Positions 6,901-20,051 of a stretch of 64,000 bases of DNA are shown piece after piece. This DNA comes from Blastococcus sp. TML/M2B (GTDB lineage Bacteria > Actinomycetota > Actinomycetes > Mycobacteriales > Geodermatophilaceae). Made by a program: the position numbers and the translations under genes. The notes under the pieces were generated by a model. It was not told where the DNA came from. It saw only the letters and a program-made list of their open reading frames with translations, and ran no database searches. The stretch is from positions 1,550,001 to 1,614,000 of the forward strand of contig NZ_JAENZZ010000001.1 of NCBI RefSeq assembly GCF_016612865.1, given 5' to 3'. Within the stretch, counting starts at the first letter, position 1. The number at the start of each line of letters is the position of its first letter.

Positions 6901-7461
6901 GAGCACGTGCTCGCCCAGAACGCCGACACCCCGATCGCCGAGATCAACGCCGGCGGGGTCGAGGACGGCGCGAACGTCACCATCGCCGGCATCCTCACCG
7001 CGGTCTCGCCGCGCACCAACAAGCAGGGCGCGCCCTGGGCGATCGCGACGCTGGAGGACCTCGAGTCCGGCATCGAGGTGCTCTTCTTCCCCAAGACCTG
7101 GGCGGAGGTCTCGGAGAAGGTCGTCCGCGACCAGATCGTCGTGGTCAAGGGCCGGATCAGCCGCCGCGACGACCAGCCCTCGCTGTTCGGCTCCGAGGTG
7201 ACGCTGCCCGAGCTGACCGAGGGGCCGCGCGGCCCGGTGCTGGTCTCGATGGCGGCCGCGCGCTGCACCCCGCCGGTGGTGGAACGTCTCCGCGAGGTCC
7301 TGGGCAGCCACCCGGGCACCACCGAGGTGCAGCTCAAGCTGGTCAACGGCAGCCGCGAGACCGTGCTGCGCCTGGACCAGGGCCTCCGGGTCCGGCCGAG
7401 CACCGCGCTGATGGGCGACATCAAGGCGCTGCTCGGGCCCACCAGCGTCGCGATCCTGTGA
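3904..7461 (+). CDS. dnaE: DNA polymerase III alpha subunit (replicative polymerase)
   Basis: Catalytic subunit of the chromosomal replicase, 1185 residues, normal for actinobacterial DnaE1. The N-terminal PHP domain (about 1-290) begins with HLHVHTEYSMLDG and carries metal-binding histidines. The polymerase active site is in PDVDIDFDDRRR (Asp421 and Asp423) and KMDFLGLRNL (Asp583). A helix-hairpin-helix region follows at about 800-920, then an OB fold around 1025-1110. The GTG at 3904 is preferred because the protein aligns from SSDSFAHLHVHTEYS, and GAGGAG lies about 12 nt upstream. The 230-bp gap before it should hold the promoter, though I cannot assign a -10 with confidence. The frame is intact, unlike polA in this window. 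Confidence 0.97.
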   Translation: MSSSDSFAHLHVHTEYSMLDGAAKLPEVTKAAAEQGMPALAMTDHGNVFGAYDFYKQATSAGVKPIIGMEGYYTPGSRFDRAPFDFGDKLLDEEGDGGSNRGKAAYTHMTLLARTTEGMHNLFRISSLASLEGQYRKPRFDRDLLERYGAGLIATTGCPSGEVNMWLRAGKEDKARQAAADFQDIFGKENFYAELMDHGLSIEKKTRPALMAIAKDLGIPLLATNDLHYTHKEDSAAHDALLCIQTGSRLNEPNRFRFNGDGYYLKSAAEMRALFPGELAVACDNTLLVAEQCEVTFTEGADLMPRFPLPEGEDETSWFIKEVERGLHKRYPNGIPDHVRKQADYETGIICQMGFPGYFLVVADFINWAKDNGIRVGPGRGSAAGSLAAFAMGITDLDPLAHGLIFERFLNPERVSMPDVDIDFDDRRRGEVIRYVSEKYGEERVSQIVTYGTIKAKAAIKDAARVLDRPYSVGDELTKLMPPDVMGKGIPLSGVFDPAHPRYKEAAEFRARYESDPGAAEVVDQAKKLEGLKRQWGVHAAGVIIGRYPLIDSIPIMRREADGAVITQFDYPTCETLGLLKMDFLGLRNLTVLDDALRNIVINGKEPVDLDEISKDLTDPATYALLSRGETLGVFQFDGGPMRSLLRLMRPDNFEDISAVGALYRPGPMGANSHTNYALRKNGQQEITPIHPELAEPLEEILGGTYGLIVYQEQVMAIAQKVAGYSLGKADLLRRAMGKKKKSVLDAEFVGFEAGMKANGFSAAAIKTLWDILVPFADYAFNKAHSAAYGLISYWTAYLKANYPAEYMAGLLTSVQDDKDRRPVYLAECRRMGIKVLPPDVNESSWDFTAVGNDIRFGLASVRNVGTNVVDSIVKTREEKGAFKDFPDFMKKIDTVACNKKVIESLAKAGAFDSMGHSRQGIVAIHAQAVDSAMGLKRKEAEGQFDLFGSFGEGDAAEDPFGSALDIVIPTADWSKSERLVFERDMLGLYVSDHPLHGVEHVLAQNADTPIAEINAGGVEDGANVTIAGILTAVSPRTNKQGAPWAIATLEDLESGIEVLFFPKTWAEVSEKVVRDQIVVVKGRISRRDDQPSLFGSEVTLPELTEGPRGPVLVSMAAARCTPPVVERLREVLGSHPGTTEVQLKLVNGSRETVLRLDQGLRVRPSTALMGDIKALLGPTSVAIL

Positions 7462-8048
7462 CCACCCCGCCGCCGGCACCGGTGCTGCCCGACCTCGTCG
7501 CGGCGGCGGCGGCCACCGACCGCTGGCAGCCCCGGCAGGAGCTGCGCGCGGACCTGCGCGCCGCGGTCTGGCTGGTCCTGGGTCTGGCCGCGGCCGGCGT
7601 GCCGGCCGGGCTGGTGTGGTGGCTGCTCGCGCCGCGGGCGGACTTCCGGATCACCGAGGACGGCCCGGTCGTGGTCGGCTCCCCGTCCGCGGAGCTGCTG
7701 GTGGCCGACGACGCCGTCTTCGTGCTGGTCATGGCCGTGGTCGGGCTGCTCGCCGGCGTCGTCGCCTGGCTGCTGCGCCGCCACCGCGGCGTCGCCCTGC
7801 TCGTCGCCCTCGCACTGGGGGCGACCGCCTGCGGGGTGGTGGCCTGGCTGGTCGGCGAGCTGTTCGGCGAGGGGCCGACGGCGGCCGAGCTGGCCGACGT
7901 CGGCGGCACGGTCACCACCGGCCTGGACCTGGGGGCGCTGGCCGCGCTCGCCGTGGCGCCGTTCGTCGCGCTGCTGGGGTACGTGGTCGGCGTGGTGATC
8001 AACGCCGACGACGGCCTGGGCCGGACGGGGACGCCCCCGGTCAGTTGA
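7458..8048 (+). CDS. Four-helix membrane protein, DUF2567-like
   Basis: A 196-residue membrane protein with four hydrophobic segments at about residues 38-58, 95-112, 118-137 and 157-180, and a short extracytoplasmic stretch (PRADFRITEDGPVV) after the first. This layout resembles the actinobacterial DUF2567 family, whose function is unknown; the family call is from memory. The GTG start overlaps the dnaE stop (GTGA). Its 3' end overlaps the convergent LON-domain gene by 8 bp. Confidence 0.75.
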   Translation: MTTPPPAPVLPDLVAAAAATDRWQPRQELRADLRAAVWLVLGLAAAGVPAGLVWWLLAPRADFRITEDGPVVVGSPSAELLVADDAVFVLVMAVVGLLAGVVAWLLRRHRGVALLVALALGATACGVVAWLVGELFGEGPTAAELADVGGTVTTGLDLGALAALAVAPFVALLGYVVGVVINADDGLGRTGTPPVS

Positions 8049-8862
8049 CCGTCATGGGGGTGGCGAAGCGCTGCAGCGGTGCCGGGACCGCCCCCAGCTC
8101 GCGCAGCAGCGTGAGCTCGCGCCGCAGCAGCCGCGTCTCCGCCGCCAGCCGGCGCCGGGTGGTCGACTCGGCCAGCAGCACCTGCCGGTCCTCGGTGGTG
8201 AGCAGCGCCGCCGAGGCGACCAGCCAGGACAGCGCCGCGGGGTCGTCGGCCACCGCCGCGAGCAGTGCGGCCCGCTCGGCGTCCTCCCCGCCGCTGCCGG
8301 CCCCGAGGTCGGCGACCTCGTCGACGTAGTCGGTGAACAGCTCCTGCACGCCCGAGGCCAGCACCGCCAGCGAGCCCCGGGCGACCGAGGCGGCCACCGC
8401 GTCGAGGTCCTCGTCGCACTCGGCCGGGCCCTGCGCGGTCGCCGTGCCGGGGAGGGCCAGGCCGTCGGCGTCGCCCGCGGCCTCCTCGGCCGCCTCCTCG
8501 TCGGCGAGCCACTCGACCTCGCCCTGCAGGTAGGGCGGGTCCTCGCCGACGACGACGTCGCGCAGCCGGAACCGGTCGCCGCCCACGGTGACGATGCGGA
8601 AGCCGCCGTCGGCCTGCGGGCGCACCAGCTGCAGCCGCGCGGTGCAGCCGATGTCGTACAGCGCCTCGGCCGGCGCCACGCGCTCGACCTCCCAGCCCTG
8701 CCGGATCGCGACGACACCGAAGAACCGCTGCTCGCTCTCCTCCGGCATCGCCAGCAGGTCGAGCACCAGCCGCCGGTAGCGCGGCTCGAAGACGTGCAGC
8801 GGGAGGACGACACCGGGGAACAGGGGAGTGCCGAGCGGGAACAGCGGGATCAACTCACCCAT
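8041..8862 (-). CDS. LON peptidase substrate-binding domain protein
   Basis: A stand-alone LON N-terminal-like domain, 273 residues, without ATPase or protease domains. It opens with the family signature ([20 protein letters not shown]) followed by [11 protein letters not shown], then about 190 residues of LON-N fold ending in a helical segment rich in Leu and Arg. Its role is unknown; homologues are loosely annotated as peptidase substrate-binding proteins. An acidic, alanine-rich insert sits near residues 115-135. A TAGGCT hexamer 6 nt before the ATG indicates a leaderless message. Divergent from hisD. Confidence 0.85.
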
Positions 8863-8868
8863 CCCGGC

Positions 8869-8892
8869 AGCCTACGGGCCGCTGACTACGCT
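8869..8892. promoter_or_regulatory. Divergent promoter pair between the LON-domain gene and hisD
   Basis: Reverse strand: TAGGCT at 8869-8874, 6 nt before the ATG of the LON-domain gene. Forward strand: TACGCT at 8887-8892, giving a start near 8899 and a leader of about 30 nt with GGAGG at 8920-8924, 6 nt before the hisD GTG. The two -10 elements are 12 bp apart, so the polymerases should compete. Confidence 0.5.
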
Positions 8893-8930
8893 GGGACTCC
8901 GTCCCACCCCACCCCTCCCGGAGGCAACCC

Positions 8931-10235
8931 GTGCTCGCCCGCATCGACCTGCGCGGAACCGCGCTGCCGGGATTCCGCGAGCTCGCCGGCCTGCTGCCGC
9001 GCGCCGCCACCGACATCGACTCCGTCCTGGCCACCGTCCGACCGCTGTGCGAGGACGTGCGCATCCGGGGCGCCCAGGCGGTCCGCGAGATCACCGCGCG
9101 GCTCGATGGCGTGGACAACGAGGACTTCGCCGTCCCGCAGGCGGCACTGGACCGCGCGCTGGCCGAGTGCGACCCGACGCTGCGTGCCGCCCTGGAGGAG
9201 GCGATCGCGCGGGTCCAGCGGGTGCACGCCGACCAGCGCCGCGCCGACGTCACCACCGAGGTGGTGCCCGGCGGGACGGTCACCGAGCGCTGGGTCCCGG
9301 TCCGCCGGGTCGGGCTGTACGTCCCCGGCGGCCTCGCCCCGCTGCTGTCCAGCGTGGTCATGAACGTCGTCCCCGCGCAGATCGCCGGCGTGGAGTCCAT
9401 CGCCGTCGCCTCCCCGCCGCAGCGCGACCACGGCGGCCTGCCCGACCCGGGCGTCCTGGCCGCCTGCGCGCTGCTGGGCATCACCGAGGTCTACGCCGTC
9501 GGTGGGGCGCAGGCCGTGGCCGTCTTCGGGTACGGCGCGGGCTCCTGCGAGCCGGTGGACATGGTCACCGGCCCCGGCAACGTCTACGTGACCGCTGCCA
9601 AGCGGCTGCTGCGCGGGATCATCGGCATCGACTCCGAGGCCGGCCCCACCGAGGTCGCGATCCTCGCCGACGAGACCGCCGACCCCGCGCACGTCGCGGC
9701 CGACCTGATCAGCCAGGCCGAGCACGACCCGCTCGCCGGAGCGGTGCTGGTCACCGACAGCGAGGCGCTCGCCGACGCCGTCCTCGCGCTCGTGCCGGGG
9801 CAGGTCGCCGCCACCAAGCACTCCGACCGGATCAACACGGCGCTGCACGGCAGCCAGTCCGGCATCGTCCTGGTCGACGACATCGACGCCGGGCTGCGCG
9901 TGGTCGACGCCTACGCCGCCGAGCACCTCGAGATCCAGACCCGGGACGCCCGGGCCGTCGCCGGCCGGGTGCGCAACGCCGGCGCGGTCTTCGTCGGCGC
10001 CTGGTCGCCGGTGTCGCTCGGCGACTACGCCGCCGGCTCCAACCACGTGCTGCCCACCGGCGGCTGCGCGCGGTTCTCCAGCGGCCTGTCGGTGCAGTCC
10101 TTCCTGCGCGGCATCCACGTCATCGAGTACGACGAGCAGGCGCTCGCCGGCGTCGCCGGGCACATCGACGCCCTCGCCGGTGCCGAGGACCTGCCCGCGC
10201 ACGCCGCCGCGGTCCGGATCCGGCAGCGCACGTGA
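8931..10235 (+). CDS. hisD: Histidinol dehydrogenase
   Basis: Zinc enzyme catalysing the last two steps of histidine biosynthesis, L-histidinol to L-histidine with two NAD+. The 434 residues match the family length. Visible motifs are the nucleotide-binding region [14 protein letters not shown], the zinc-ligand segment ISQAEHDP, and the catalytic glutamate-histidine pair in [11 protein letters not shown] 8931 has a good Shine-Dalgarno (GGAGG, 6 nt spacing). It leads a tightly packed operon with hisC (GTGA overlap) and hisB. Confidence 0.97.
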
Positions 10236-11344
10236 CGTCGATGGACGAGCTCCCGCTGCGGCCGGAGCTGCGGGGGCGCACGCCCTACGGCGCCCCGCAG
10301 GTGCCGGCGCAGCATCGGCTGAACACCAACGAGAACCCGCACCCGCTGCCCGACGAGCTGCTCGCCGACCTCGGCGCGGCGCTCGGGCACGCGGCGCTGG
10401 AGCTCAACCGCTACCCCGACCGGGACGCCGTCGAGCTGCGCGCCGACCTCGCCGCCTACCTCACCCGGTCGGCCGGGACGCCGGTCGACCCGGCGCAGGT
10501 GTGGGCGGCCAACGGCTCCAACGAGGTGCTCCAGCAGATCCTGCAGGCCTTCGGCGGGGCGGGCCGCACCGCGCTGGGCTTCACGCCGTCGTACTCGATG
10601 CACCCGATCATCTCGGCGGGCACCGGCACCGGCTGGGTGGACGGGCACCGGCGGGCGGACTTCACGATCGACCCGGCCGCCGCCGTCGCCCAGGTGCGCG
10701 AGGTGGCGCCGCACGTCGTCTTCGTGACCAGCCCGAACAACCCGACCGGCACCGCCGTCCCGCTGGCCACGATCGAGGCGCTGTACGAGGCGACCTCGGG
10801 CGTGCTGGTCGTCGACGAGGCCTACGCCGAGTTCGCCCGCACCGGGACGCCGTCGGCGCTGACCCTGCTCCCGGGGCGGCCGCGGCTGATCGTGAGCCGG
10901 ACGATGAGCAAGGCGTTCGGGATGGCCGGGCTGCGGCTGGGCTACCTCGCCGCCGACCCCGCCGTCGTCGACGCGCTGCAGCTGGTGCGGCTGCCCTACC
11001 ACCTGAGCTCGCTCACCCAGGCCGCCGCGCGGGCCGCGCTGGCGCACACCGACGCGCTGCTGGCGACGGTGGACGCGGTGCGGGCGCAGCGGGACCGGAT
11101 CGTCGCCGCGCTGCCGGCGCTGGGCCTGACCAGCGTGCCCAGCGACGCCAACTTCGTGCTCTTCGGCCGGTTCGCCGACGCGCCCGCCACCTGGCAGGCG
11201 CTGCTCGACCGCGGCGTGCTGGTCCGCGACGTCGGGCTGCCCGGCTGGCTCCGGGTCACCGCCGGCACCGCCGCCGAGACCGACGCCTTCCTCACCGCGC
11301 TGGGTGAGGTCGCGCCGGATCACCGCCTCGTTCTGGGAGACTGA
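10232..11344 (+). CDS. hisC: Histidinol-phosphate aminotransferase
   Basis: PLP-dependent class I/II aminotransferase converting imidazole-acetol phosphate to histidinol phosphate. The 370-residue protein has the N-terminal [10 protein letters not shown] motif, the TSPNNPTGT and VVDEAYAEF cofactor contacts, and the Schiff-base lysine in [10 protein letters not shown] (about Lys227). GTG 10232 overlaps the hisD stop; an ATG three codons later is an alternative start. hisB follows 4 bp after its stop. Confidence 0.96.
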
Positions 11345-11348
11345 GCTC

Positions 11349-11957
11349 ATGACCGCACCTGCACGTCGCACCGCCCGGGTGGAGCGCGCGACCAGCGAGA
11401 CCAAGCTGGTCGTCGAGCTCGACCTCGACGGCACGGGCACCAGCTCGATCAGCACGGGCGTCGGCTTCTACGACCACATGCTCACCGCGCTGTCCAAGCA
11501 CAGCGGCATCGACCTCACGGTGCAGGCCGACGGCGACCTGCACATCGACGCGCACCACACCGTCGAGGACGTCGCGATCGCGCTCGGCCAGGCGTTCGCC
11601 GAGGCCCTGGGCGACAAGCGCGGCATCACGCGGTACGGCGACGCCACCATCCCGATGGACGAGGTGCTGGCGCAGGCCGCCGTCGACCTGTCGGGCCGGC
11701 CGTACTTCGTGCACGCCGAGCCCGAAGGCATGACGCCGATGATCGGGCCGGACTACCCGACGTCGCTGACCAAGCACGTGCTCGAGTCGTTCGCGTTCAA
11801 CGCGCGGATCAGCCTGCACGTGCGGGTGCTCTACGCCGGCCGGGACGCCCACCACATCGTCGAGGGCCAGTTCAAGGCGCTGGCCCGCGCGCTGCGCCAG
11901 GCCGTGGCGCTGGACCCCCGCGTCACCGACGTGCCCTCGACCAAGGGTGCCCTGTAA
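11349..11957 (+). CDS. hisB: Imidazoleglycerol-phosphate dehydratase
   Basis: Manganese-dependent dehydratase for the sixth step of histidine biosynthesis. The 202-residue monofunctional form lacks the N-terminal histidinol-phosphatase domain of enterobacterial HisB. Both metal-binding repeats are visible: GFYDHM with HHTVEDVAI in the first half, and [10 protein letters not shown] with [15 protein letters not shown] in the second. ATG 11349 is chosen over an in-frame upstream start at 11304 because it begins just after the hisC stop, behind GGGAGA, and the extra residues would overlap hisC. Confidence 0.96.
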
Positions 11958-11960
11958 CCG

Positions 11961-12137
11961 GTGAACTCCGGGCTGATCCTGCTGGTGTTCGGCGGCTTCC
12001 TCCTCGGCGGCGCGTGGAGCATCTGGAGCGTCGACGAGGACGACCCCCGCCGGAGCACCCCGCAGGTGGTGTTCGCCGTCGTCCTGCTGCTGGCGGCGCT
12101 GCTGGCGTCCGCGGCGGGCGTGCTCCGGCTCGTCTGA
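11961..12137 (+). CDS. 58-residue two-helix membrane protein in the his operon
   Basis: A very small ORF, GTG to TGA, that begins 3 bp after the hisB stop. The product has two hydrophobic helices (about residues 4-21 and 36-55) separated by a charged loop, SVDEDDPRRSTPQ. Third codon positions are nearly all G or C and the gene fits the operon spacing with no gap, which supports it being real. I do not recognise a family. It could be a small regulatory or complex-associated membrane protein; its place in the operon does not show a histidine role. Confidence 0.65.
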   Translation: MNSGLILLVFGGFLLGGAWSIWSVDEDDPRRSTPQVVFAVVLLLAALLASAAGVLRLV

Positions 12138-12144
12138 CCCGCGG

Positions 12145-12744
12145 ATGAGCGGGGCGGACGAGCAGCGCCTCCTGCGCACCGTGCTCGCCGACCCGACGGT
12201 CGCGGCGGTGCTCGACCGGGCGCCGGCCCTGGGCGTGGCCGACTGGTGGCTCACCGCCGGGGTGCTGTTCCAGACGGTGTGGAACGACCTCACCGGCCGC
12301 CCGCCCGGGACCGGCATCCGCGACGCCGACCTCTTCTACTTCGACGAGGACACCTCGTGGGAGGCGGAGGACGTCGTCATCCGGGCCGGGGCGGAGCTGT
12401 TCGCCGACCTGCCCGTGCCCGTGGAGATCCGCAACGAGGCGCGGGTGCACCTCTGGTACGCCGACCACTTCGGGACGCCGGCCCCGCCGTTCCGCGACTG
12501 CGCCGACGCCATCGACTCCTTCGCCGCGGTCTGCTGCGCCGTGGGCGTCACGGTGGACGCCTCCGGCGAGCCGCGGGTGTACGCGCCGTACGGGCTCGAC
12601 GACCTGTTCGGGCTGGTCGTGCGCCCCAACCCGCGGCTGGCGCCGCGGGCGGTCTACGAGGCCAAGGCGGCGCGCTGGCTGGGGGAGTGGCCGGAGCTGA
12701 CCGTGCTGCCGTGGGACGCGGCGGTACCGATACCGCACCGCTGA
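12145..12744 (+). CDS. Nucleotidyltransferase-like protein (DUF925/NTP_transf_6)
   Basis: A 199-residue protein resembling the DUF925 (PF06042) nucleotidyltransferase-like family. Characteristic features are WWLTAGVLFQTVWND near the N-terminus, the acidic DADLFYFDEDTSWEAED stretch that supplies candidate metal ligands, the basic strand VEIRNEARVHLWY, and GLDDLFGLVVRPNP. The biochemical substrate of the family is not established. ATG 12145 lies 7 bp after the small membrane protein, so it is likely read with the his operon. Confidence 0.82.
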   Translation: MSGADEQRLLRTVLADPTVAAVLDRAPALGVADWWLTAGVLFQTVWNDLTGRPPGTGIRDADLFYFDEDTSWEAEDVVIRAGAELFADLPVPVEIRNEARVHLWYADHFGTPAPPFRDCADAIDSFAAVCCAVGVTVDASGEPRVYAPYGLDDLFGLVVRPNPRLAPRAVYEAKAARWLGEWPELTVLPWDAAVPIPHR

Positions 12745-12788
12745 CCCGGGCGCACCCCGGGCCGGGGTGCCTCTCCCTCATCCGGGTG

Positions 12789-12843
12789 ATGATCATCTGC
12801 GTCCGCTCGGCTGCGGGCCGCCGCGGGACGACCAGATGATCAT
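12789..12843. repeat. 11-bp inverted repeat (ATGATCATCTG / CAGATGATCAT) over a gene start
   Basis: Arms at 12789-12799 and 12833-12843 are perfect reverse complements with a 33-nt gap. Each arm contains the 8-bp palindrome ATGATCAT, unusually AT-rich for this genome, and the two palindromes are 47 bp apart. The right arm covers the likely ATG of the glycosyltransferase (12836). It could be a paired operator or an RNA stem hiding the start codon. Confidence 0.6.
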
Positions 12844-14788
12844 GGTCCTCCGCATGCAGCAGTCGCTGCCCGCCGCCCCGGCCGACCCACGGTCGGCCGA
12901 CGCGCAGCTCCGCCTCGGTGACGTGCTCCTCGAGCAGGGCGTGATCACCCGCGACCAGCTGCGCGAGGCCCTCGACGGCCACCGGCAGGTCGGTGAACCC
13001 CTCGGTGCCGTCCTGCTCGCGCGGGGAGCGATCACCCGCCGGCAGCTCTACACCGCGCTCGCCCAGGTGTGGGGCGCCGACATCACCTTCCTCGACTCCG
13101 ACGACGTCGACCCGGAGCTCGCCCGGCTGTTCCCCGCCGATCTGCTCGCCCGCGAGCTGTGGCTGCCGGTGCGGATCGAGCAGTCTGCCGACGGCGGCCG
13201 GCAGGTCGTCGTCGCCGTCGCCGGTCGCCCGTCGGTGCACATCGCCGACGAGGTCGCCGCCCGCACCGGCATCCCCCGGGTGCGGCAGGTGGTGACCTCC
13301 GACTGGGACGTGCACCGCGGCCTGCGCACCGCCTGGCGCGACGAGCTGGTGCACACCTCGGTGCGCGCGCTGGCCGAGCAGCGCCCCGCTGAGTCCGCGT
13401 CGCAGGTGTTCGTGTGGTGGCAGATCGCGCTCGCCGTCGGCCTGGTCGCGGGCACCACGCTGTCGGCCGTCCTGTGGTTCTCCGCCACGGCGCTCGTCGT
13501 CGTGGCGGTGCTCAACGTCTCCGTCGCGCTCGCCGTGGGCGCGAAGGCCCTGATCAGCACGGTCGGCACCGCGTACGAGACCGTCGAGCAGGTCACCGAC
13601 GAGGAGGTCGCCGCGCTCGTCGACGCCGACCTGCCGCGGTACTCGATCCTCGTGCCGGTCTACAAGGAGGCCGGGATCGTCGGGTTGCTCATGCGCAACC
13701 TCGCCGCGCTGGACTACCCGCGGGAGAAGGTGGAGATCCTCCTGCTGCTCGAGGAGGACGACGAGGAGACCCTCGCCGCCGCGCTGGCCGCCGCCCCGCC
13801 GGACATCGTCCGGATCATCGTGGTCCCGCACTCGCTGCCCAAGACCAAGCCGAGGGCCTGCAACGTGGGCCTGACCTTCGCCCGCGGCGAGTTCGTGGTC
13901 ATCTACGACGCCGAGGACCGCCCGGACCCCGACCAGCTGAAGAAGGCCGTCGTCGCGTTCGGCAAGGGCGGCGAGGACCTGGCGTGCGTGCAGGCCGCGC
14001 TGAACTACTTCAACGCCACCGAGAACGTGCTCACCCGCATGTTCACCCTCGAGTACTCCTCGTGGTTCGACTACACGCTGGCCGGCCTGGACAAGCTGCG
14101 GCTGCCGATCCCGCTCGGCGGCACCAGCAACCACTTCCGGGCCGGCGCGCTGCGCGAGCTCGGCGGCTGGGACCCCTACAACGTCACCGAGGACGCCGAC
14201 CTGGGCATCCGCGCCTCGGCCCGCGGCTACCGGGTCGCCGTCGTCAACTCCACGACGTACGAAGAGGCCAACATGGCCGTCGGCAACTGGATCCGGCAGC
14301 GCAGCCGCTGGGTCAAGGGCTACATGCAGACGGTGCTGGTGCACAGCCGCCGGCCGGTGGCGCTCTTCCGCAGCGTCGGGGCCCGGCAGACCGCCGGGTT
14401 CGCCCTGCTCATCGGCGGCACCCCGCTGATGTTCCTGGCCACGCCCTGGCTGTACGCCTTGTTCGTCGTGGACCTCGTCCGGCCCGGGCTGCTGGTGTCC
14501 GCCCTGCCGCAGTGGCTGGTGACGGTCAGCCTGGGCAACCTGCTGCTCGGCAACGGCGTGATCATCTACCTGTCGCTGCTCGCCGGGTTCAAGCGGCGCA
14601 ACTACCGGCTGGTGCCCTTCGCGCTGCTGTCCCCGCTGTACTGGCTGCTGCACTCGGTCGCGGCCTACAAGGCGGCCTGGCAGCTGGTCACCAAGCCGTT
14701 CTACTGGGAGAAGACGACGCACGGGCTGTCCAGCCACGTCGCCCCCGGCCCGGCGGCGACCGCCACCGACCGGGCGGACGACCAGTGA
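12836..14788 (+). CDS. Processive family 2 glycosyltransferase with N-terminal MshEN-like domain
   Basis: A roughly 650-residue membrane glycosyltransferase. Residues about 20-80 carry two tandem MshEN-type motifs (LRLGDVLLEQG then PLGAVLLARG, each followed by ITRxQL and LxxAL), a fold that in MshE and NfrB binds cyclic di-GMP. After a linker and two membrane helices (about 195-240) comes the GT2 domain: YSILVPVYKEAG, the acidic DAEDRPDPDQL, VTEDADLG, and the acceptor motif QRSRWVKG (QxxRW) of processive synthases. Three or four C-terminal helices follow. Start uncertain: ATG 12836, 12842 or 12854. The next gene overlaps it by GTGA. Inferred role: exopolysaccharide synthesis gated by a nucleotide second messenger. 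Confidence 0.85.
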   Translation: MIMVLRMQQSLPAAPADPRSADAQLRLGDVLLEQGVITRDQLREALDGHRQVGEPLGAVLLARGAITRRQLYTALAQVWGADITFLDSDDVDPELARLFPADLLARELWLPVRIEQSADGGRQVVVAVAGRPSVHIADEVAARTGIPRVRQVVTSDWDVHRGLRTAWRDELVHTSVRALAEQRPAESASQVFVWWQIALAVGLVAGTTLSAVLWFSATALVVVAVLNVSVALAVGAKALISTVGTAYETVEQVTDEEVAALVDADLPRYSILVPVYKEAGIVGLLMRNLAALDYPREKVEILLLLEEDDEETLAAALAAAPPDIVRIIVVPHSLPKTKPRACNVGLTFARGEFVVIYDAEDRPDPDQLKKAVVAFGKGGEDLACVQAALNYFNATENVLTRMFTLEYSSWFDYTLAGLDKLRLPIPLGGTSNHFRAGALRELGGWDPYNVTEDADLGIRASARGYRVAVVNSTTYEEANMAVGNWIRQRSRWVKGYMQTVLVHSRRPVALFRSVGARQTAGFALLIGGTPLMFLATPWLYALFVVDLVRPGLLVSALPQWLVTVSLGNLLLGNGVIIYLSLLAGFKRRNYRLVPFALLSPLYWLLHSVAAYKAAWQLVTKPFYWEKTTHGLSSHVAPGPAATATDRADDQ

Positions 14789-15345
14789 CCACCGTGCCGT
14801 CGCCGCTCGCTCCGCTTCCGCACCGGCGGCGCACCGCCGTCTCCCCGGTCGATGCGTCTCCGGTCGCTGCCGGCGCCGCACCTCGGTCCGTTCCCCTGGG
14901 CCGGGTGAGCGCGGCCGCGCTGCTCGCAGTCGGCGCGGTCGCGGGCGGGCTGCTGGTCGCCGGCCGGCCCTGGCAGGACGCGCTGCTGCCGGGGTTCGCG
15001 CTGCTGCTCGCCGCCTACGGGGCGGTCTTCTGCCTGCGGGCGGTGACCGTCACCGGCTTCCTCGCGGGCTCCGCCGGGGCCGGACTGGTGATCGCCGGAT
15101 CGATCCCGCTGCTCGGGGCGCTGGCGGTGGCCGGGGTGCTCGCCGTCGCGTGCGGCGGGGCGCCCGAGTGGCGCCGGGTGGAGGCCTGGCAGTCCGACCG
15201 CGCCCGGATGGGTGACTCCGCCCCGGGGCCGGTCGGTCGGCTGTGGCGCTGGGACCGCGTGGCCGCGGCCTTCCTGGTGCTGTCCTTCCCGCCGGCCATG
15301 GCGGCCTTCGCGGAGTTCTTCATCGCCTGGAGCACCTCGCGCTGA
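14785..15345 (+). CDS. Hypothetical membrane protein coupled to the glycosyltransferase
   Basis: A 186-residue protein with a proline- and arginine-rich N-terminal tail (about 1-45) and four predicted helices, two pairs at about 48-92 and 94-120 and one near the C-terminus (FLVLSFPPAMAAFAEFFIAW). I recognise no domain. The GTG overlaps the glycosyltransferase stop (GTGA), so the two are probably translated together and the product may be an accessory subunit of the polysaccharide synthase. The last helix precedes the stop directly. Confidence 0.7.
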   Translation: MTTVPSPLAPLPHRRRTAVSPVDASPVAAGAAPRSVPLGRVSAAALLAVGAVAGGLLVAGRPWQDALLPGFALLLAAYGAVFCLRAVTVTGFLAGSAGAGLVIAGSIPLLGALAVAGVLAVACGGAPEWRRVEAWQSDRARMGDSAPGPVGRLWRWDRVAAAFLVLSFPPAMAAFAEFFIAWSTSR

Positions 15346-15380
15346 GGCCCGTGCCCCGGCCGGGCAGCCGGTGCGCCCGC

Positions 15381-15430
15381 ATGCGCACGAGCGTGGCCTC
15401 CCGCCCGCCGGAGACCACGCTCGTGCGCAT
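15381..15430. terminator. 16-bp perfect hairpin downstream of the glycosyltransferase operon
   Basis: Arms 15381-15396 (ATGCGCACGAGCGTGG) and 15415-15430 are perfect reverse complements with an 18-nt loop that can itself pair (TCC with GGA). It lies 36 bp past the membrane protein stop and 77 bp before the hisH -10. No U-tract follows, as is common in high-GC actinobacteria. It could equally be a dispersed REP-like palindrome. Confidence 0.6.
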
Positions 15431-15506
15431 CCGCGCGACCGGTGGGCTGGTGGTGGCCGTCGCAGCGCCTCGGGGGAATCCCCGGCGGGGCCGCTGCGCT
15501 GGTCGG

Positions 15507-15512
15507 TAGCGT
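15507..15512 (+). promoter_or_regulatory. -10 element (TAGCGT) for leaderless hisH
   Basis: TAGCGT lies 7 nt before the hisH GTG, so hisH appears to be transcribed from its own leaderless promoter after the hairpin at 15381-15430. Confidence 0.5.
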
Positions 15513-15519
15513 GGCAGGC

Positions 15520-16158
15520 GTGAAGAAGGTGGCGGTCCTCGACTACGGGTCGGGCAATCTGCGCTCGGCGGAGCGCGCGCTCGCGCGGGTGGGGGCCGAC
15601 GTCACCGTCACCTCCGACGCGCAGACCGCGCTCGAGGCCGACGGTCTCGTCGTCCCCGGCGTCGGCGCGTTCGCCGCGTGCATGGAGGGCCTCAAGGCCG
15701 TCGACGGCGCGCGGATCATCGACCGCCGGCTGGCCGGCGGTCGTCCGGTGCTCGGCATCTGCGTCGGCATGCAGATCCTCTTCGAGCGCGGCGTCGAGCA
15801 CGGTCACGATGCGGAGGGCTGCGGCGAGTGGCCCGGCGTCGTCGAGCCGCTCCGGGCCCCGGTGCTGCCGCACATGGGCTGGAACACCGTCGACGTCGCC
15901 CCCGGCAGCGTGCTCTTCGACGGGATCGAGGACGAGCGCTTCTACTTCGTGCACTCCTACGGCGTCCGCGAGTTCACCCTCGGTCAGGACGACCTGCCCT
16001 CGCCGCTGCCCAAGCCGAAGGTCACCTGGGCCGAGCACGGCGACCGGTTCGTCGCGGGCATCGAGAACACCGCGCTGTCGGCGACGCAGTTCCACCCGGA
16101 GAAGAGCGGCGACGCCGGCGCCCAGCTGCTCACCAACTGGCTGGGCACGCTCGCCTGA
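15520..16158 (+). CDS. hisH: Imidazole glycerol phosphate synthase, glutamine amidotransferase subunit
   Basis: Class I glutaminase that feeds ammonia to HisF in the fifth step of histidine biosynthesis. The 212 residues include the nucleophile in [10 protein letters not shown] (Cys81) and the His-Glu of the triad in FHPEK (His192, Glu194), plus the N-terminal [18 protein letters not shown] 15520 is chosen over a frame opening at 15442 because the -10 hexamer is inside the longer version. Its partner hisF is at 18654. The convergent methyltransferase stop abuts its stop with no gap. Confidence 0.96.
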
Positions 16159-16863
16159 TCAGGGCAGCGCGAGCAGCCGCAGGGCGAGGAAGCCCGGGCG
16201 GGTGCTCAGCTTCGCGGCCTCCTCGGGCCAGCGCTGCCGCATGCTCTCCGGCGGCCGCGGCTCGACCAGCCGCTGGATGACGAACCCGGCGTCGGTGGCC
16301 GCGGCGCAGAGGTCGGACAGCGGCTCGCGCCAGAACTGCACCTCGTGCCGCCCCGACAGCATCGACCAGGCGTCGGTCTCCAGGACGCGGTCGAAGTAGG
16401 AGCCGCCCTTGCGCAGCCAGTCGGTGGTCGGGTGCTGGGTGGAGACGACGGCAGCACCGCCGGGCTTCAGGACCCGGCGCATCTCGGCGAAGGCGGCGCG
16501 CTCGTCCGCGACGTAGTGGATCGCGAGGGCGCAGACGACCAGGTCGACGGAGGCGTCGGGGTAGGGGAGGGGCTCGTCCAGCCGGGCGACGCGGATCTCG
16601 GCGCGGTCGCCGACCCGCGCCCGCGCCAGCTCCACCATGGCGCTGCTGGCGTCGAAGCCGACGACCTCCGCGCCGCGCGCCAGCAGCTCCTCGGCGTAGA
16701 GGCCCGGCCCGCACCCGGCGTCCAGCACCCGCAGGCCGGTGACGTCGCCCAGCAGCTCCAGCACGGCCGGCCGGTCGTAGTGGGCGTTGTAGGCGCCGTC
16801 CTCGGCGTGCGCCAGGAACTCGTCGGCCATGGACTCGTAGGGGCGCCAGAGCTCGTCGGTCAC
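16159..16863 (-). CDS. Class I SAM-dependent methyltransferase
   Basis: A 234-residue UbiE/COQ5-like methyltransferase. SAM-binding motif I is VLDAGCGPGLYAEELL, motif II the acidic strand VVGFDASSAM, motif IV VDLVVCALAIHYV, and post-motif VLKPGGAAVVSTQHP. The C-terminal region (from about 165) has no identified substrate domain. Substrate unknown. GTG 16863 has TAGGGT 6 nt upstream, so it is probably leaderless. It lies on the reverse strand inside the his region, convergent with hisH, and shares no obvious role with it. Confidence 0.88.
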   Translation of the reverse strand: MTDELWRPYESMADEFLAHAEDGAYNAHYDRPAVLELLGDVTGLRVLDAGCGPGLYAEELLARGAEVVGFDASSAMVELARARVGDRAEIRVARLDEPLPYPDASVDLVVCALAIHYVADERAAFAEMRRVLKPGGAAVVSTQHPTTDWLRKGGSYFDRVLETDAWSMLSGRHEVQFWREPLSDLCAAATDAGFVIQRLVEPRPPESMRQRWPEEAAKLSTRPGFLALRLLALP

Positions 16864-16869
16864 CGGGCG

Positions 16870-16875
16870 ACCCTA
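16870..16875 (-). promoter_or_regulatory. -10 element (TAGGGT) of the methyltransferase gene
   Basis: On the reverse strand TAGGGT is 6 nt before GTG 16863, the same leaderless layout seen elsewhere in the window. Confidence 0.45.
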
Positions 16876-16885
16876 GTGGCGCGGG

Positions 16886-17485
16886 TCACCACCGGCCGCG
16901 GTGCACGACCTCGTCCAGGCCGCGTCGCCCGCGCCGCAGCGAGGGGGAGCGGCGGTCGCCCTCGCCGGGGTAGCCGATCGACAGGCAGCCGACCGGCCGG
17001 TACTCCCCGGGCACCCCGAACGCGGCGCGCAGCGCGTCCACCTTGTCCCCGGGCACGCCGAAGAAGCAGGCGCCGAGCCCCTCGTCGACGGCGGTCAGCA
17101 GCACGAGCAGCGACGCCATCCCGGCGTCGACGTCCCAGTACGGCACCGGCCAGCGCGCCTCGTCGCGGTCGGTCCAGCCCTTGTCCGGCTCGGCGTACCG
17201 GTCGAGGTAGGCCTGCTTGTTCGCGAACGGCACGACCAGCAGCGGCGCCCGGCGCATCCGCGTCAGCCAGGCGTCCGGCGCGCCGGCGTCGGTGGTCGCC
17301 GTCCAGAAGCGGTCCCGGTCCTCGTCGTCCTCCAGCACCAGGAACGCCCAGCCCTGGCTGAACCCGGCCGAGGGCGCCCGGATGGCGTGCGCCAGCAGCC
17401 GCTCCCGCACCTCCGGCGGCACCGGCCGGTCGGGGTCGTAGTCGCGCACCATGCGACGGCGGCGGACCACCTCTGCGAACTCCAC
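16886..17485 (-). CDS. Nitroreductase-family flavoprotein
   Basis: A 199-residue FMN-dependent oxidoreductase of the nitroreductase fold. The N-terminal FMN-phosphate motif is [18 protein letters not shown], followed by [18 protein letters not shown], and a C-terminal FMN contact region [19 protein letters not shown] with [10 protein letters not shown]. The substrate is not evident. GTG 17485 is chosen as start because [14 protein letters not shown] begins the family alignment; a longer frame runs back through the priA start and is rejected. A weaker hexamer CAGGCT lies 6 nt before it. Divergent from priA. Confidence 0.88.
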
Positions 17486-17523
17486 GGCGACAGCCTGCCG
17501 CAGAACTCCGATGACATCGCTCC

Positions 17524-17529
17524 TAGGCT
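17524..17529 (+). promoter_or_regulatory. -10 element (TAGGCT) for leaderless priA
   Basis: TAGGCT lies 7 nt before the GTG of priA, in the 51-bp space shared with the divergent nitroreductase gene. Confidence 0.5.
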
Positions 17530-17536
17530 GGTCACC

Positions 17537-18268
17537 GTGCCGAAGCTGCAGCTGCTCCCCGCCGTCGACGTCGCCGACGGACAGGCCGTGCGCCTCGTCC
17601 AGGGGGAGGCCGGGAGCGAGACCTCCTACGGCGACCCGCTCGAGGCCGCCCTCCAGTGGCAGCGCGACGGCGCCGAGTGGGTCCACCTGGTCGACCTGGA
17701 CGCCGCCTTCGGCCGCGGCAGCAACCGCGAGCTGCTGGCCCGCGTCGTCGGTGAGCTGGACGTCGACGTCGAGCTCTCCGGCGGCATCCGGGACGACGAG
17801 TCGCTGGCCGCGGCGCTGGCCACCGGCTGCCGCCGGGTCAACCTGGGCACCGCGGCGCTGGAGTCGCCCGAGTGGTGCGCCCGCGCCATCGCCGAGCACG
17901 GCGACCGCATCGCCGTCGGGCTGGACGTGCGCGGCACCCGGCTGGCCGCCCGCGGCTGGACGCAGGAGGGCGGCGAGCTCTACGAGACCCTCGCCCGCCT
18001 GGACGCCGAGGGCTGCGCCCGCTACGTCGTCACCGACATCACCAAGGACGGCACGCTCAAGGGCCCGAACCTGGAGCTGCTGCGCGAGGTCTGCGCCGCG
18101 ACGCCGCGCCCGGTCATCGCCTCCGGCGGCGTGAGCTCGCTGGACGACATCCGCGCCCTGGCCGGGTTGACCGCCGTCGGCGTCGAGGGCGCCATCGTCG
18201 GCAAGGCCCTGTACGCCGGCGCCTTCACCCTGCCGCAGGCCTTGCGGATCACCGAGGAGCTCGCGTGA
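17537..18268 (+). CDS. priA: Bifunctional HisA/TrpF isomerase PriA
   Basis: A (beta-alpha)8 barrel isomerase that in actinobacteria catalyses the Amadori rearrangement for both histidine (ProFAR, HisA) and tryptophan (PRA, TrpF). The 243 residues have the two catalytic aspartates, Asp11 in [10 protein letters not shown] and Asp167 in [13 protein letters not shown], and phosphate-binding glycines in SGGIRDDES and [10 protein letters not shown]. The bifunctional call rests on phylum knowledge and on there being no trpF among the trp genes here. GTG 17537 is preceded by a leaderless -10. It overlaps the RidA gene by GTGA. Confidence 0.93.
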
Positions 18269-18657
18269 GCGTGGTGCGGCTGGGCTCGGGCAGCCCGTGG
18301 GAGGCGGTGGTCGGCTACAGCCGCGTCGTCGTCCGCGGTGACACCGCCTGGGTCAGCGGCACCACCTCCACGGTGGACGGCGAGGTCGCCCACCCCGGCG
18401 ACGCCGCCGCGCAGACCCGGCAGGCGCTCGCGATCATCGAGCAGTCGCTGGAGCGGGCCGGGTTCACCATGGCCGACGTCGTCCGCACGCGGCTGTTCGT
18501 CACCGACATCTCCCGGTGGGAGGAGGTCGGGCGGGTGCACGGCGAGGTCTTCGGCGACATCCGGCCGGCCACCTCGATGGTGCAGGTCGCCGCCCTCATC
18601 GACCCCGCCCACCTGGTCGAGATCGAGGCCGACGCGGTGCGGGGGGCCGGGGCATGA
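18265..18657 (+). CDS. RidA-family enamine/imine deaminase-like protein
   Basis: A 130-residue YjgF/YER057c/RidA protein, a trimeric fold that hydrolyses reactive enamines and imines from PLP enzymes. The C-terminal half has the conserved arginine in [11 protein letters not shown] and [19 protein letters not shown], with the terminal acidic VEIEADAV strand. It sits between priA and hisF with overlaps on both sides (GTGA and ATGA), so it is made with the histidine enzymes. A role in damage control during histidine or tryptophan synthesis is inference. RidA paralogues are diverse and some have other substrates. Confidence 0.88.
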
Positions 18658-19424
18658 GCGTGTCGGTGCGCGTCATCCCGTGCCTGGACGTCGACCAGGG
18701 CCGGGTGGTCAAGGGCGTCAACTTCGTCGACCTGCGCGACGCCGGCGACCCGGTCGAGATGGCCCGGGTCTACGACGCCGAGGGCGCCGACGAGCTCACC
18801 TTCCTCGACATCAGCGCCAGCTCGGGCAACCGGGAGACGACCTACGACGTCGTCCGCCGCACCGCGGAGAGCGTGTTCATCCCGCTCACCGTCGGCGGCG
18901 GCGTGCGCACGGTCGAGGACGTCGACCGGCTGCTGCGGGCCGGCGCGGACAAGGTCGGCGTCAACACCGCCGCCGTCGCCCGGCCGGAGCTGATCGCCGA
19001 GATCGCGCACCGGTTCGGCAGCCAGGTGCTGGTGCTGTCGGTCGACGCCCGCCGCGTGCGCGACGGCGCGGCCACCGATTCGGGCTTCGAGATCACCACG
19101 CACGGCGGGCGCCAGGGCACCGGCCGGGACGCCGTCGAGTGGGTGGTGCGGGCCGCCGAGCTCGGTGTCGGCGAGGTGCTGCTCAACTCGATGGACGCCG
19201 ACGGCACCCAGGCCGGCTTCGACACCGAGCTGATCCGCGCGGTGCGCCGCGAGGTGACCGTGCCGGTGATCGCCAGCGGGGGAGCCGGCAAGGTCGAGGA
19301 CTTCCCGCCCGCGGTCGAGGCCGGCGCCGACGCCGTCCTCGCCGCGAGCGTCTTCCACTTCGGCAAGCTGCGGGTCGGCGACGTCAAGGCCGAGCTGTCC
19401 CGCGCGGGGATCCCGGTCCGGTAG
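18654..19424 (+). CDS. hisF: Imidazole glycerol phosphate synthase, cyclase subunit
   Basis: Cyclase half of the HisH-HisF complex, producing imidazole glycerol phosphate and AICAR. It is a 256-residue (beta-alpha)8 barrel with the catalytic aspartates in [13 protein letters not shown] (Asp12) and LSVDARRV (Asp131), and the phosphate sites [11 protein letters not shown] and [13 protein letters not shown] 18654 overlaps the RidA stop (ATGA). It ends the second his cluster; hisI is 10 kb downstream. Confidence 0.97.
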
Positions 19425-19434
19425 CGCCCCGCGG

Positions 19435-19929
19435 TCAGCGTCCGGGCGCCGTCATGCGCGGCCAGCGGCTCACCAGCGCCGCGGCGGTGAGCAGCACGGC
19501 CAGCGACAGGCCGGCCTGGACCCAGGTCCACCAGCCCACCGGCGTGTGCCCGGCCCACGGGCAGGTGATGGTCTCGACGGCCATGAGGACGCCGGCGGCG
19601 ATGCCGGCGACCGGGGCGTGCCGGCTGCTGCGCCACAGCAGGGTCACCGCCAGCACGATGGTGCCCAGCGCCGACAGGTCGATGACCGCCTGCCACGCCG
19701 GGTAGGCCAGGTCGCCCGCGGGCAACGGCTCGACCGCCGGGCACAGCACCCAGGCCACGGCGAAGGCGATGGCGAGCCACCGGCCGGGTCGCCCGGAGGG
19801 GACCGGACCACCAGTGCCCGCAGGCGCGGGAGCGGGCGCAACCGGGGCCGGGACCTGCTGCCGGGACTGCGGCCGGGGCGCTACCGGGGAGACCGGCGCG
19901 GGGGTCGCGGAGGAAGCGTCGAGCGTCAC
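19435..19929 (-). CDS. Hypothetical four-helix membrane protein
   Basis: A 164-residue protein with a proline/alanine-rich disordered N-terminal segment (about 1-48) and four helices at about 50-66, 82-100, 105-120 and 132-152. No domain is recognised. GTG 19929 has TACGGT 7 nt upstream on the reverse strand, supporting this start and a leaderless transcript. Convergent with hisF, 10 bp apart. Confidence 0.68.
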   Translation of the reverse strand: MTLDASSATPAPVSPVAPRPQSRQQVPAPVAPAPAPAGTGGPVPSGRPGRWLAIAFAVAWVLCPAVEPLPAGDLAYPAWQAVIDLSALGTIVLAVTLLWRSSRHAPVAGIAAGVLMAVETITCPWAGHTPVGWWTWVQAGLSLAVLLTAAALVSRWPRMTAPGR

Positions 19930-19936
19930 GCGCGGA

Positions 19937-19942
19937 ACCGTA
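19937..19942 (-). promoter_or_regulatory. -10 element (TACGGT) of the 19435-19929 gene
   Basis: TACGGT on the reverse strand, 7 nt before GTG 19929, matching the leaderless pattern. Confidence 0.45.
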
Positions 19943-20051
19943 GAGGTCGACGAGCCGCTGCGCCTGCATCCGGCTCGCCGGGCGCGCGACGGACCGTCGA
20001 CGCGCGGCGGCCGGGGGAGCAGGGTGGGGAGCCCGACCCCGGAGCGCCGCC

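Follow-up and report, generated by a model that had tools for sequence, protein, structure and literature searches.

A predicted c-di-GMP-responsive glycosyltransferase with an N-terminal MshEN domain in Blastococcus sp. TML/M2B, a lineage-specific variant of a widespread type

What is a glycosyltransferase that begins with an MshEN domain, a domain known to bind cyclic di-GMP (c-di-GMP), doing among the histidine biosynthesis genes of a soil actinobacterium, and could the messenger control it directly? The question is raised by an open reading frame in a 64,000-nucleotide stretch of the Blastococcus sp. TML/M2B genome, which as a whole is referred to below as the window. A preliminary description, made from the sequence alone, had proposed a glycosyltransferase family 2 (GT2) protein with QxxRW and tandem N-terminal MshEN motifs at this position. 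Its coordinates, frame and length were right, and the domain content and order in 12836-14788 are confirmed as real. The features of the locus are listed below.

12719..15454, no strand assigned: segment with the glycosyltransferase (GT)-partner pair, missing from genome G081, whose his region is collinear (genome comparison)
12836..14788, plus strand: MshEN-GT2 protein, 650 aa plus stop (ORF translation, HMM matches)
12911..13069, plus strand: tandem c-di-GMP motif, MshEN_N, aa 26-78 (NF053729 match, motif test)
13085..13324, plus strand: C-terminal half of the MshEN domain, aa 84-163 (PF05157 match)
13406..13540, plus strand: two predicted TM helices ahead of the GT domain, aa 191-235 (hydropathy scan only)
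13619..14335, plus strand: GT2 catalytic domain, approximately aa 262-500, with DAE at 358, TED at 451 and QRSRW at 488 (GT2 HMMs, motifs)
14423..14572, plus strand: predicted C-terminal TM segments, aa 530-548 and 561-579 (hydropathy scan only)
14785..15345, plus strand: partner membrane protein, 186 aa, GTG start, about five hydrophobic segments

An alternative in-frame GTG start at 12767 would make the MshEN-GT2 protein 23 residues longer. Its two motifs, of 24 residues each, occupy aa 26-49 (motif I) and aa 55-78 (motif II) and are separated by a spacer of five residues. An over-cut-off match to NF053729, the NCBIfam model for MshE-related c-di-GMP motifs, covers aa 26-77 (E 1.9e-16; 59.6 bits, cut-off 38). 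The PF05157 search proposed in the preliminary description also gave a match over the cut-off (E 3.2e-8; 33.9 bits, cut-off 23.1); it lies at aa 84-163, beyond the motif pair, and corresponds to the C-terminal half of the MshEN domain that directly follows the pair. The double motif is not due to chance: in 81,526 53-aa windows from a six-frame translation of the 64 kb, the relaxed double-motif test returned it alone (aa 26-78), and shuffling the N-terminal 190 aa 2,000 times gave no match. Structural relatives of the N-terminal part in the PDB are the N-domains of MshE, PilF and PilB, with 5htl_A found at E 3.6e-7 by the 55-aa motif region. Matches to GT2 models together cover aa 267-541. Both TED and QxxRW, the latter as QRSRW, are present, as in processive GT2 synthases, and the DxD site reads DAE (aa 358-360) and so departs from the DxD pattern. 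The PDB relatives of this part are cellulose synthases.

The reading that we favour, and consider moderately likely, is that the locus encodes a membrane-embedded processive exopolysaccharide synthase switched by c-di-GMP through its MshEN domain, with the 186-aa protein as a dedicated subunit. The membrane-embedded GT2 domain would make an exopolysaccharide and pass the polymer across the membrane, while the cytoplasmic N-terminal MshEN domain would bind c-di-GMP. By analogy with NfrB of E. coli, the bound messenger would activate the catalytic domain. The 186-aa membrane protein from the overlapping gene would be in physical contact with the synthase.

We compared the putative binding site with that of V. 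cholerae MshE, whose residue numbering (PMC5013675) is used here. The equivalents of Arg9, Leu10, Gly11, Gly18, Leu25, Leu29, Leu39, Gly40, Gly47, Leu54 and Leu58 are kept, and those of Gln32, Arg38 and Gln61 are replaced by His, Pro and Val, respectively. The preliminary description had made its case depend on the motif Arg, Leu and Gly residues being kept in homologues. In the window protein, all Leu and Gly and the Arg of motif I are in place, and the Arg of motif II is not, its position being taken by Pro, which the published relaxed motif permits. As can be seen, both Gln residues that bond the ligand, together with the second motif Arg, are absent from the protein.

These losses speak for an alternative that we regard as possible, but clearly less so than a c-di-GMP-switched enzyme, namely that the Geodermatophilaceae MshEN domain no longer binds c-di-GMP and serves as a structural part or as the contact of another regulator, the enzyme being constitutive or controlled otherwise. 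According to PMC5013675, there is a precedent in XpsE, whose MshEN domain lost binding, with R38 and Q61 among the changed residues. In the MshE complex, Leu and Gly residues contact the guanine pockets or give them their form; the bonds to ribose and phosphate are made by Gln32 and Gln61 (PMC5013675). Changes of the hydrophobic residues are described as costing more than 10-fold in affinity, and those of Arg9, Asp12 or Gln32 at most 5-fold (PMC5013675); in another assay, the loss of binding was 61% for Q32A and 83% for R9A (PMC4624772). Thus, the Leu and Gly residues that the window protein retains are at the costly positions, and the Gln32 change is among the milder, which argues against a non-binding domain.

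Conservation in the family was scored on 26 rows, made up of the query plus 25 orthologues; one orthologue is without the motif region, leaving 25 scorable rows. It was 0.95 for the 14 core motif positions vs 0.75 for the remaining 34 (one-sided p 6.5e-4); the conservation of Leu and Gly may stem from fold constraint alone. At position 24, the Gln site, motif II has Val in 25/25 rows and motif I has Gln in three of the 25. The turn Gly of motif II is replaced by Gln in 6/25 rows, a further point in favour of a domain that has lost its ligand. Judged from the sequence, c-di-GMP binding by this MshEN domain is plausible, and it may be weak.

The genome itself (4.1 Mb, four contigs) contains 31 GGDEF and 25 EAL stretches (some are fragments of a single domain); this abundance also argues against loss of binding. 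Its only PF05157 protein is the MshEN-GT2 protein. No GGDEF domain is present in the 64-kb window, the nearest stretch being ca. 186 kb away. The search for diguanylate cyclases near homologues, suggested in the preliminary description, found a GGDEF ORF in the flanks of 5/80 loci (the best 80 of 297 relatives), using a profile built from seven GGDEF domains of the host genome and flanks of unequal length. Since the 11 named family genomes all have many GGDEF stretches (27-40 in ten and 22 in the eleventh), we do not take these five loci as support.

The state of the motif can be set against the presence of GGDEF domains in whole genomes. In 77 genomes, which represent the best 80 of 297 relatives minus the incomplete rows L011, L066 and L069, an intact motif occurred with GGDEF in 42 and without it in two, and a degenerate motif with GGDEF in ten and without it in 23 (Fisher p 7.7e-10). 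For a motif pair to be called intact, each of its motifs had to carry Gly at position 3 and to match no fewer than 9 of 11 relaxed positions, a definition set after the rows had been seen; a true GGDEF was one with E <1e-20, and eight genomes with weaker matches (3e-7 to 2e-14) were scored as being without it. When these were scored as having it, the counts became 42/2 vs 18/15 (p 3.5e-5), and a rank test of summed motif scores, which uses no threshold, gave p 3.8e-8. Addition of ten rows, i.e., the query and nine rows from a class sample of 394 genomes, resulted in 45/2 for intact and 11/29 for degenerate motifs; the nine were added because their match extended into the N-domain, and 23 genomes with a GT-only relative were left out. 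With those 23 scored as motif-less, the counts were 45/2 vs 32/31 (p 1.4e-7, relatedness ignored). We do not rely on the Fisher p because the homologues are related. On the tree, motif status changes five to seven times and there are four to seven independent pairs, of which 0.9 to 2.3 agree on average and none oppose, which is not significant. The association between intact motif and GGDEF is suggestive.

The GT search of the class sample scored three first-look candidates per genome, so that a few distant copies could escape, and a GGDEF count of 9 in this sample stands for at least 9. In five genomes of one genus (L158-L162, code f29 g58), which supplied five of the nine added rows, the first motif is degenerate and GGDEF is absent at E 1e-20; other members of this genus that do have GGDEF gave no GT match in the class sample. 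GT-only relatives without the MshEN half (L165-L178, L180-L185) occur in several actinobacterial families, and GGDEF is present in 21/23 class-sample genomes with such a relative. Since some relatives have a degenerate N-domain or none, the motif is dispensable for the GT part, which again favours a non-binding domain.

The protein belongs to a widespread family. A scan confirmed 297 relatives, and among the best 80, which were studied, the same MshEN-to-GT2 order recurs in many phyla; titles name Actinomycetota, Chloroflexi, Thermus, Bacteroidetes, cyanobacteria, Proteobacteria and others. The nearest named homologues among these 80 are from Geodermatophilus, Modestobacter and Klenkia (71-79% identity, with one partial row at 83%). 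Aligned rows of this set contain TED and QR[ST]RW in 81/81 cases, and their DxD site reads DAE in 80/81 and DGE in one. The c-di-GMP motif model matches 41/53 rows of alignment A1 at E 0.001. Neighbouring ORFs of the 69 loci outside Geodermatophilaceae among the best 80 of 297 were grouped by single-linkage clustering. Of the 69 loci, 41 have a multi-TM protein, encoded in most cases immediately downstream, 31 have a BcsB-like protein and 23 a small protein. PF03170 confirmed two proteins of the BcsB cluster over the cut-off, one neighbour is a GH113 protein and one a CotH protein; four multi-TM and two small proteins had no convincing match in Pfam. PF03170 has no match in the genome that contains the window. 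Six proteobacterial loci (L039, L046, L047, L052, L054 and L076) share a longer cluster of BcsB-like, MshEN-GT, multi-TM, GH113-like, small and CotH-like proteins, typed by Pfam on L052.

These data bear on a second alternative, that the enzyme adds one or a few sugars to a lipid or carrier and makes no polymer. GT2 enzymes are diverse, DAE replaces DxD, and one xagB-like gene has in the past carried the annotation beta-monoglucosyldiacylglycerol synthase (PMC4643136), all of which would suit such an activity. However, TED and QRSRW are as in processive synthases, TM helices are predicted on both sides of the catalytic domain, the best NCBIfam GT matches are cellulose and PNAG synthases (with scores far below the equivalog cut-offs), and BcsB-like neighbours accompany homologues in the 31 loci mentioned above. 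We consider this alternative improbable and retain a processive synthase.

The start of the membrane protein gene at 14785 overlaps the GT stop by four bases, GTGA, and the suggestion that its product is the partner of the GT is supported by co-occurrence. A 22-row partner profile found it in 28 of 112 Geodermatophilaceae genomes and the orthologous GT was found in 26; the partner is present in 26/26 genomes with the GT vs 2/86 without it. In 24 of the 26 both genes lie on one contig within ca. 1.2 kb, in two (G160 and G161) they are on different contigs, and in one of the 26 (G184) the GT match starts only at aa 181. One of the two extra genomes with the partner (G132) has broken pieces of both genes together at L187:5022-5670, and in the other (G178, 80% complete) there is no GT within the 12 kb of the partner's contig read. 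Within the 394 genomes of the class sample, 33 had GT-family matches and only that of the window had the partner (eight first-look candidates per genome were scored for the partner, so that a few distant copies could escape). The partner was not found by tblastn in the 69 loci outside Geodermatophilaceae among the best 80 of 297, and it has no convincing relative in Pfam, NCBIfam or PDB. Alignment of its profile with the downstream multi-TM family gave a score of 38.6 over approximately 110 columns (hhalign probability 42-60%); the highest score among 40 block shuffles was 24.4, and reversed controls scored about 15. Judging by this alignment, the partner is probably a shortened homologue of the usual downstream multi-TM neighbour.

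The pair is located between an NTP_transf_6 gene (12145-12744) and hisH, among his genes; Pfam matches around it are histidinol dehydrogenase, aminotransferase, IGPD, GATase and two His_biosynth genes. Genome G081 of the same genus is collinear with the window over 10200-12718 and 15455-19448 at 90-91% DNA identity and carries another ORF in the gap, and the GT orthologue is present in one of 23 same-genus genomes, that of the window. Thus, the pair arrived by transfer or by movement within or near the family. The GC content of the segment is 0.736, near that of its flanks (0.747-0.748). Rfam gave no matches in 7000-20000, and no sigma-70-like promoter or terminator pattern was detected in 11900-16200, a weak test in GC-rich DNA. 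The his genes on both sides, on the same strand and with short gaps, might suggest that the gene, lying between hisB and hisH, serves histidine biosynthesis, a view that we reject since the orthologue is confined to one of the 23 genomes, G081 is collinear without the pair, and hisD, hisC, hisB, hisH and hisF are absent from the flanks of 11 named family loci.

The interval from hisB/NTP_transf_6 to hisH appears as a variable slot in the genus (12719-15454 in the window; L151, L152, L153 and L155). It is occupied by a DUF222 protein in L151 and L155 (with an HNH-like end in L155), by an ORF that looks similar by eye in L152, and in L153 by a very long ORF with an Ig-like/YD-repeat look (YD repeats by eye). 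In genome G086, an M28 peptidase gene lies between hisH and a shortened methyltransferase gene (L154:3397-5730).

In support of the c-di-GMP-switched synthase, we counted the matches over cut-offs, TED and QR[ST]RW, the PDB relatives, the GGDEF and EAL domains of the genome, the conservation of the core positions, the occurrence of intact motifs together with GGDEF in the 77 genomes, the BcsB-like and multi-TM neighbours of homologues, and the co-occurrence of the partner. Counted against it were the lost Gln and Arg residues, the small number of phylogenetic contrasts, rows with a degenerate motif and GGDEF, the GT-only genomes, the lack of BcsB, DAE, and the lack of a nearby GGDEF domain.

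The locus had been put forward as an undescribed system. This does not stand, as homologues in many phyla have the same domain order, which is in print for Sfz2 (PMC8250860), and fusions of MshEN with glycosyltransferases are mentioned in PMC5013675. MshEN-GT2 relatives being widespread, the window contains a local form of a known type, and the Geodermatophilaceae system is a lineage-specific variant of it. One can speculate further, with little confidence, that MshEN is a general c-di-GMP switch of XagB/Sfz2-type synthases across phyla that tends to decay when diguanylate cyclases are lost, and that the Geodermatophilaceae version works without BcsB, with a shortened subunit and with a Gln-less site of shifted affinity or cyclic dinucleotide choice. 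If this were true, one domain would explain c-di-GMP control across a wide range of exopolysaccharide synthases, among them a candidate for stalk formation whose N-domain was read as a translocation part. Geodermatophilaceae would then offer a c-di-GMP target open to direct testing, and the motif, having decayed repeatedly, would provide natural variants for comparison. By itself the finding is of moderate interest, the window protein belonging to a widespread family.

We found no study of an MshEN glycosyltransferase in Geodermatophilaceae in the open-access literature searched. Among the closest known systems are Sfz2 and the XagB-like proteins, compared here by domain descriptions and gene order, which share an N-terminal MshEN-type domain followed by GT2. 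Sfz2 of stalk-forming, iron-oxidising Zetaproteobacteria is described as having an EpsE-like domain (IPR007831) at the N-terminus, considered by its authors for a role in translocation, and at the C-terminus a GT2 domain that carries QxxRW and TED; its gene lies beside a BcsB-like one (PMC8250860). The order in xag-like clusters is bcsB, xagB, xagC, xagD (PMC4643136), and the Xanthomonas xag genes direct a biofilm polysaccharide described as uncharacterised and are upregulated when c-di-GMP rises (PMC3528676; PMC3609779). In contrast to these clusters, the window genome is without BcsB, the downstream partner is much shorter, and His and Val replace both Gln residues, which we count as a difference.

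NfrB of E. coli, for which c-di-GMP binding has been shown (PMC8669469), likewise combines GT2 and MshEN in one membrane protein, and the NfrB model matches aa 25-179 of the window protein. As the preliminary description had observed for this actinobacterial protein, the order is reversed, MshEN being N-terminal here and C-terminal in NfrB; the match reaches 47.4 bits vs an equivalog cut-off of 1170, and no analogue of NfrA or YbcH lies beside the window gene. BcsA and PgaC share a GT2 domain with TED and QxxRW, but the window protein scores far below their equivalog cut-offs. Control is exerted through PilZ in the cellulose synthase BcsA and is PgaD-dependent in the PNAG synthase PgaC. MshE, PilF and PilB have the MshEN domain in common with the window protein, but the output of these proteins is an ATPase, and that of the window protein a glycosyltransferase.
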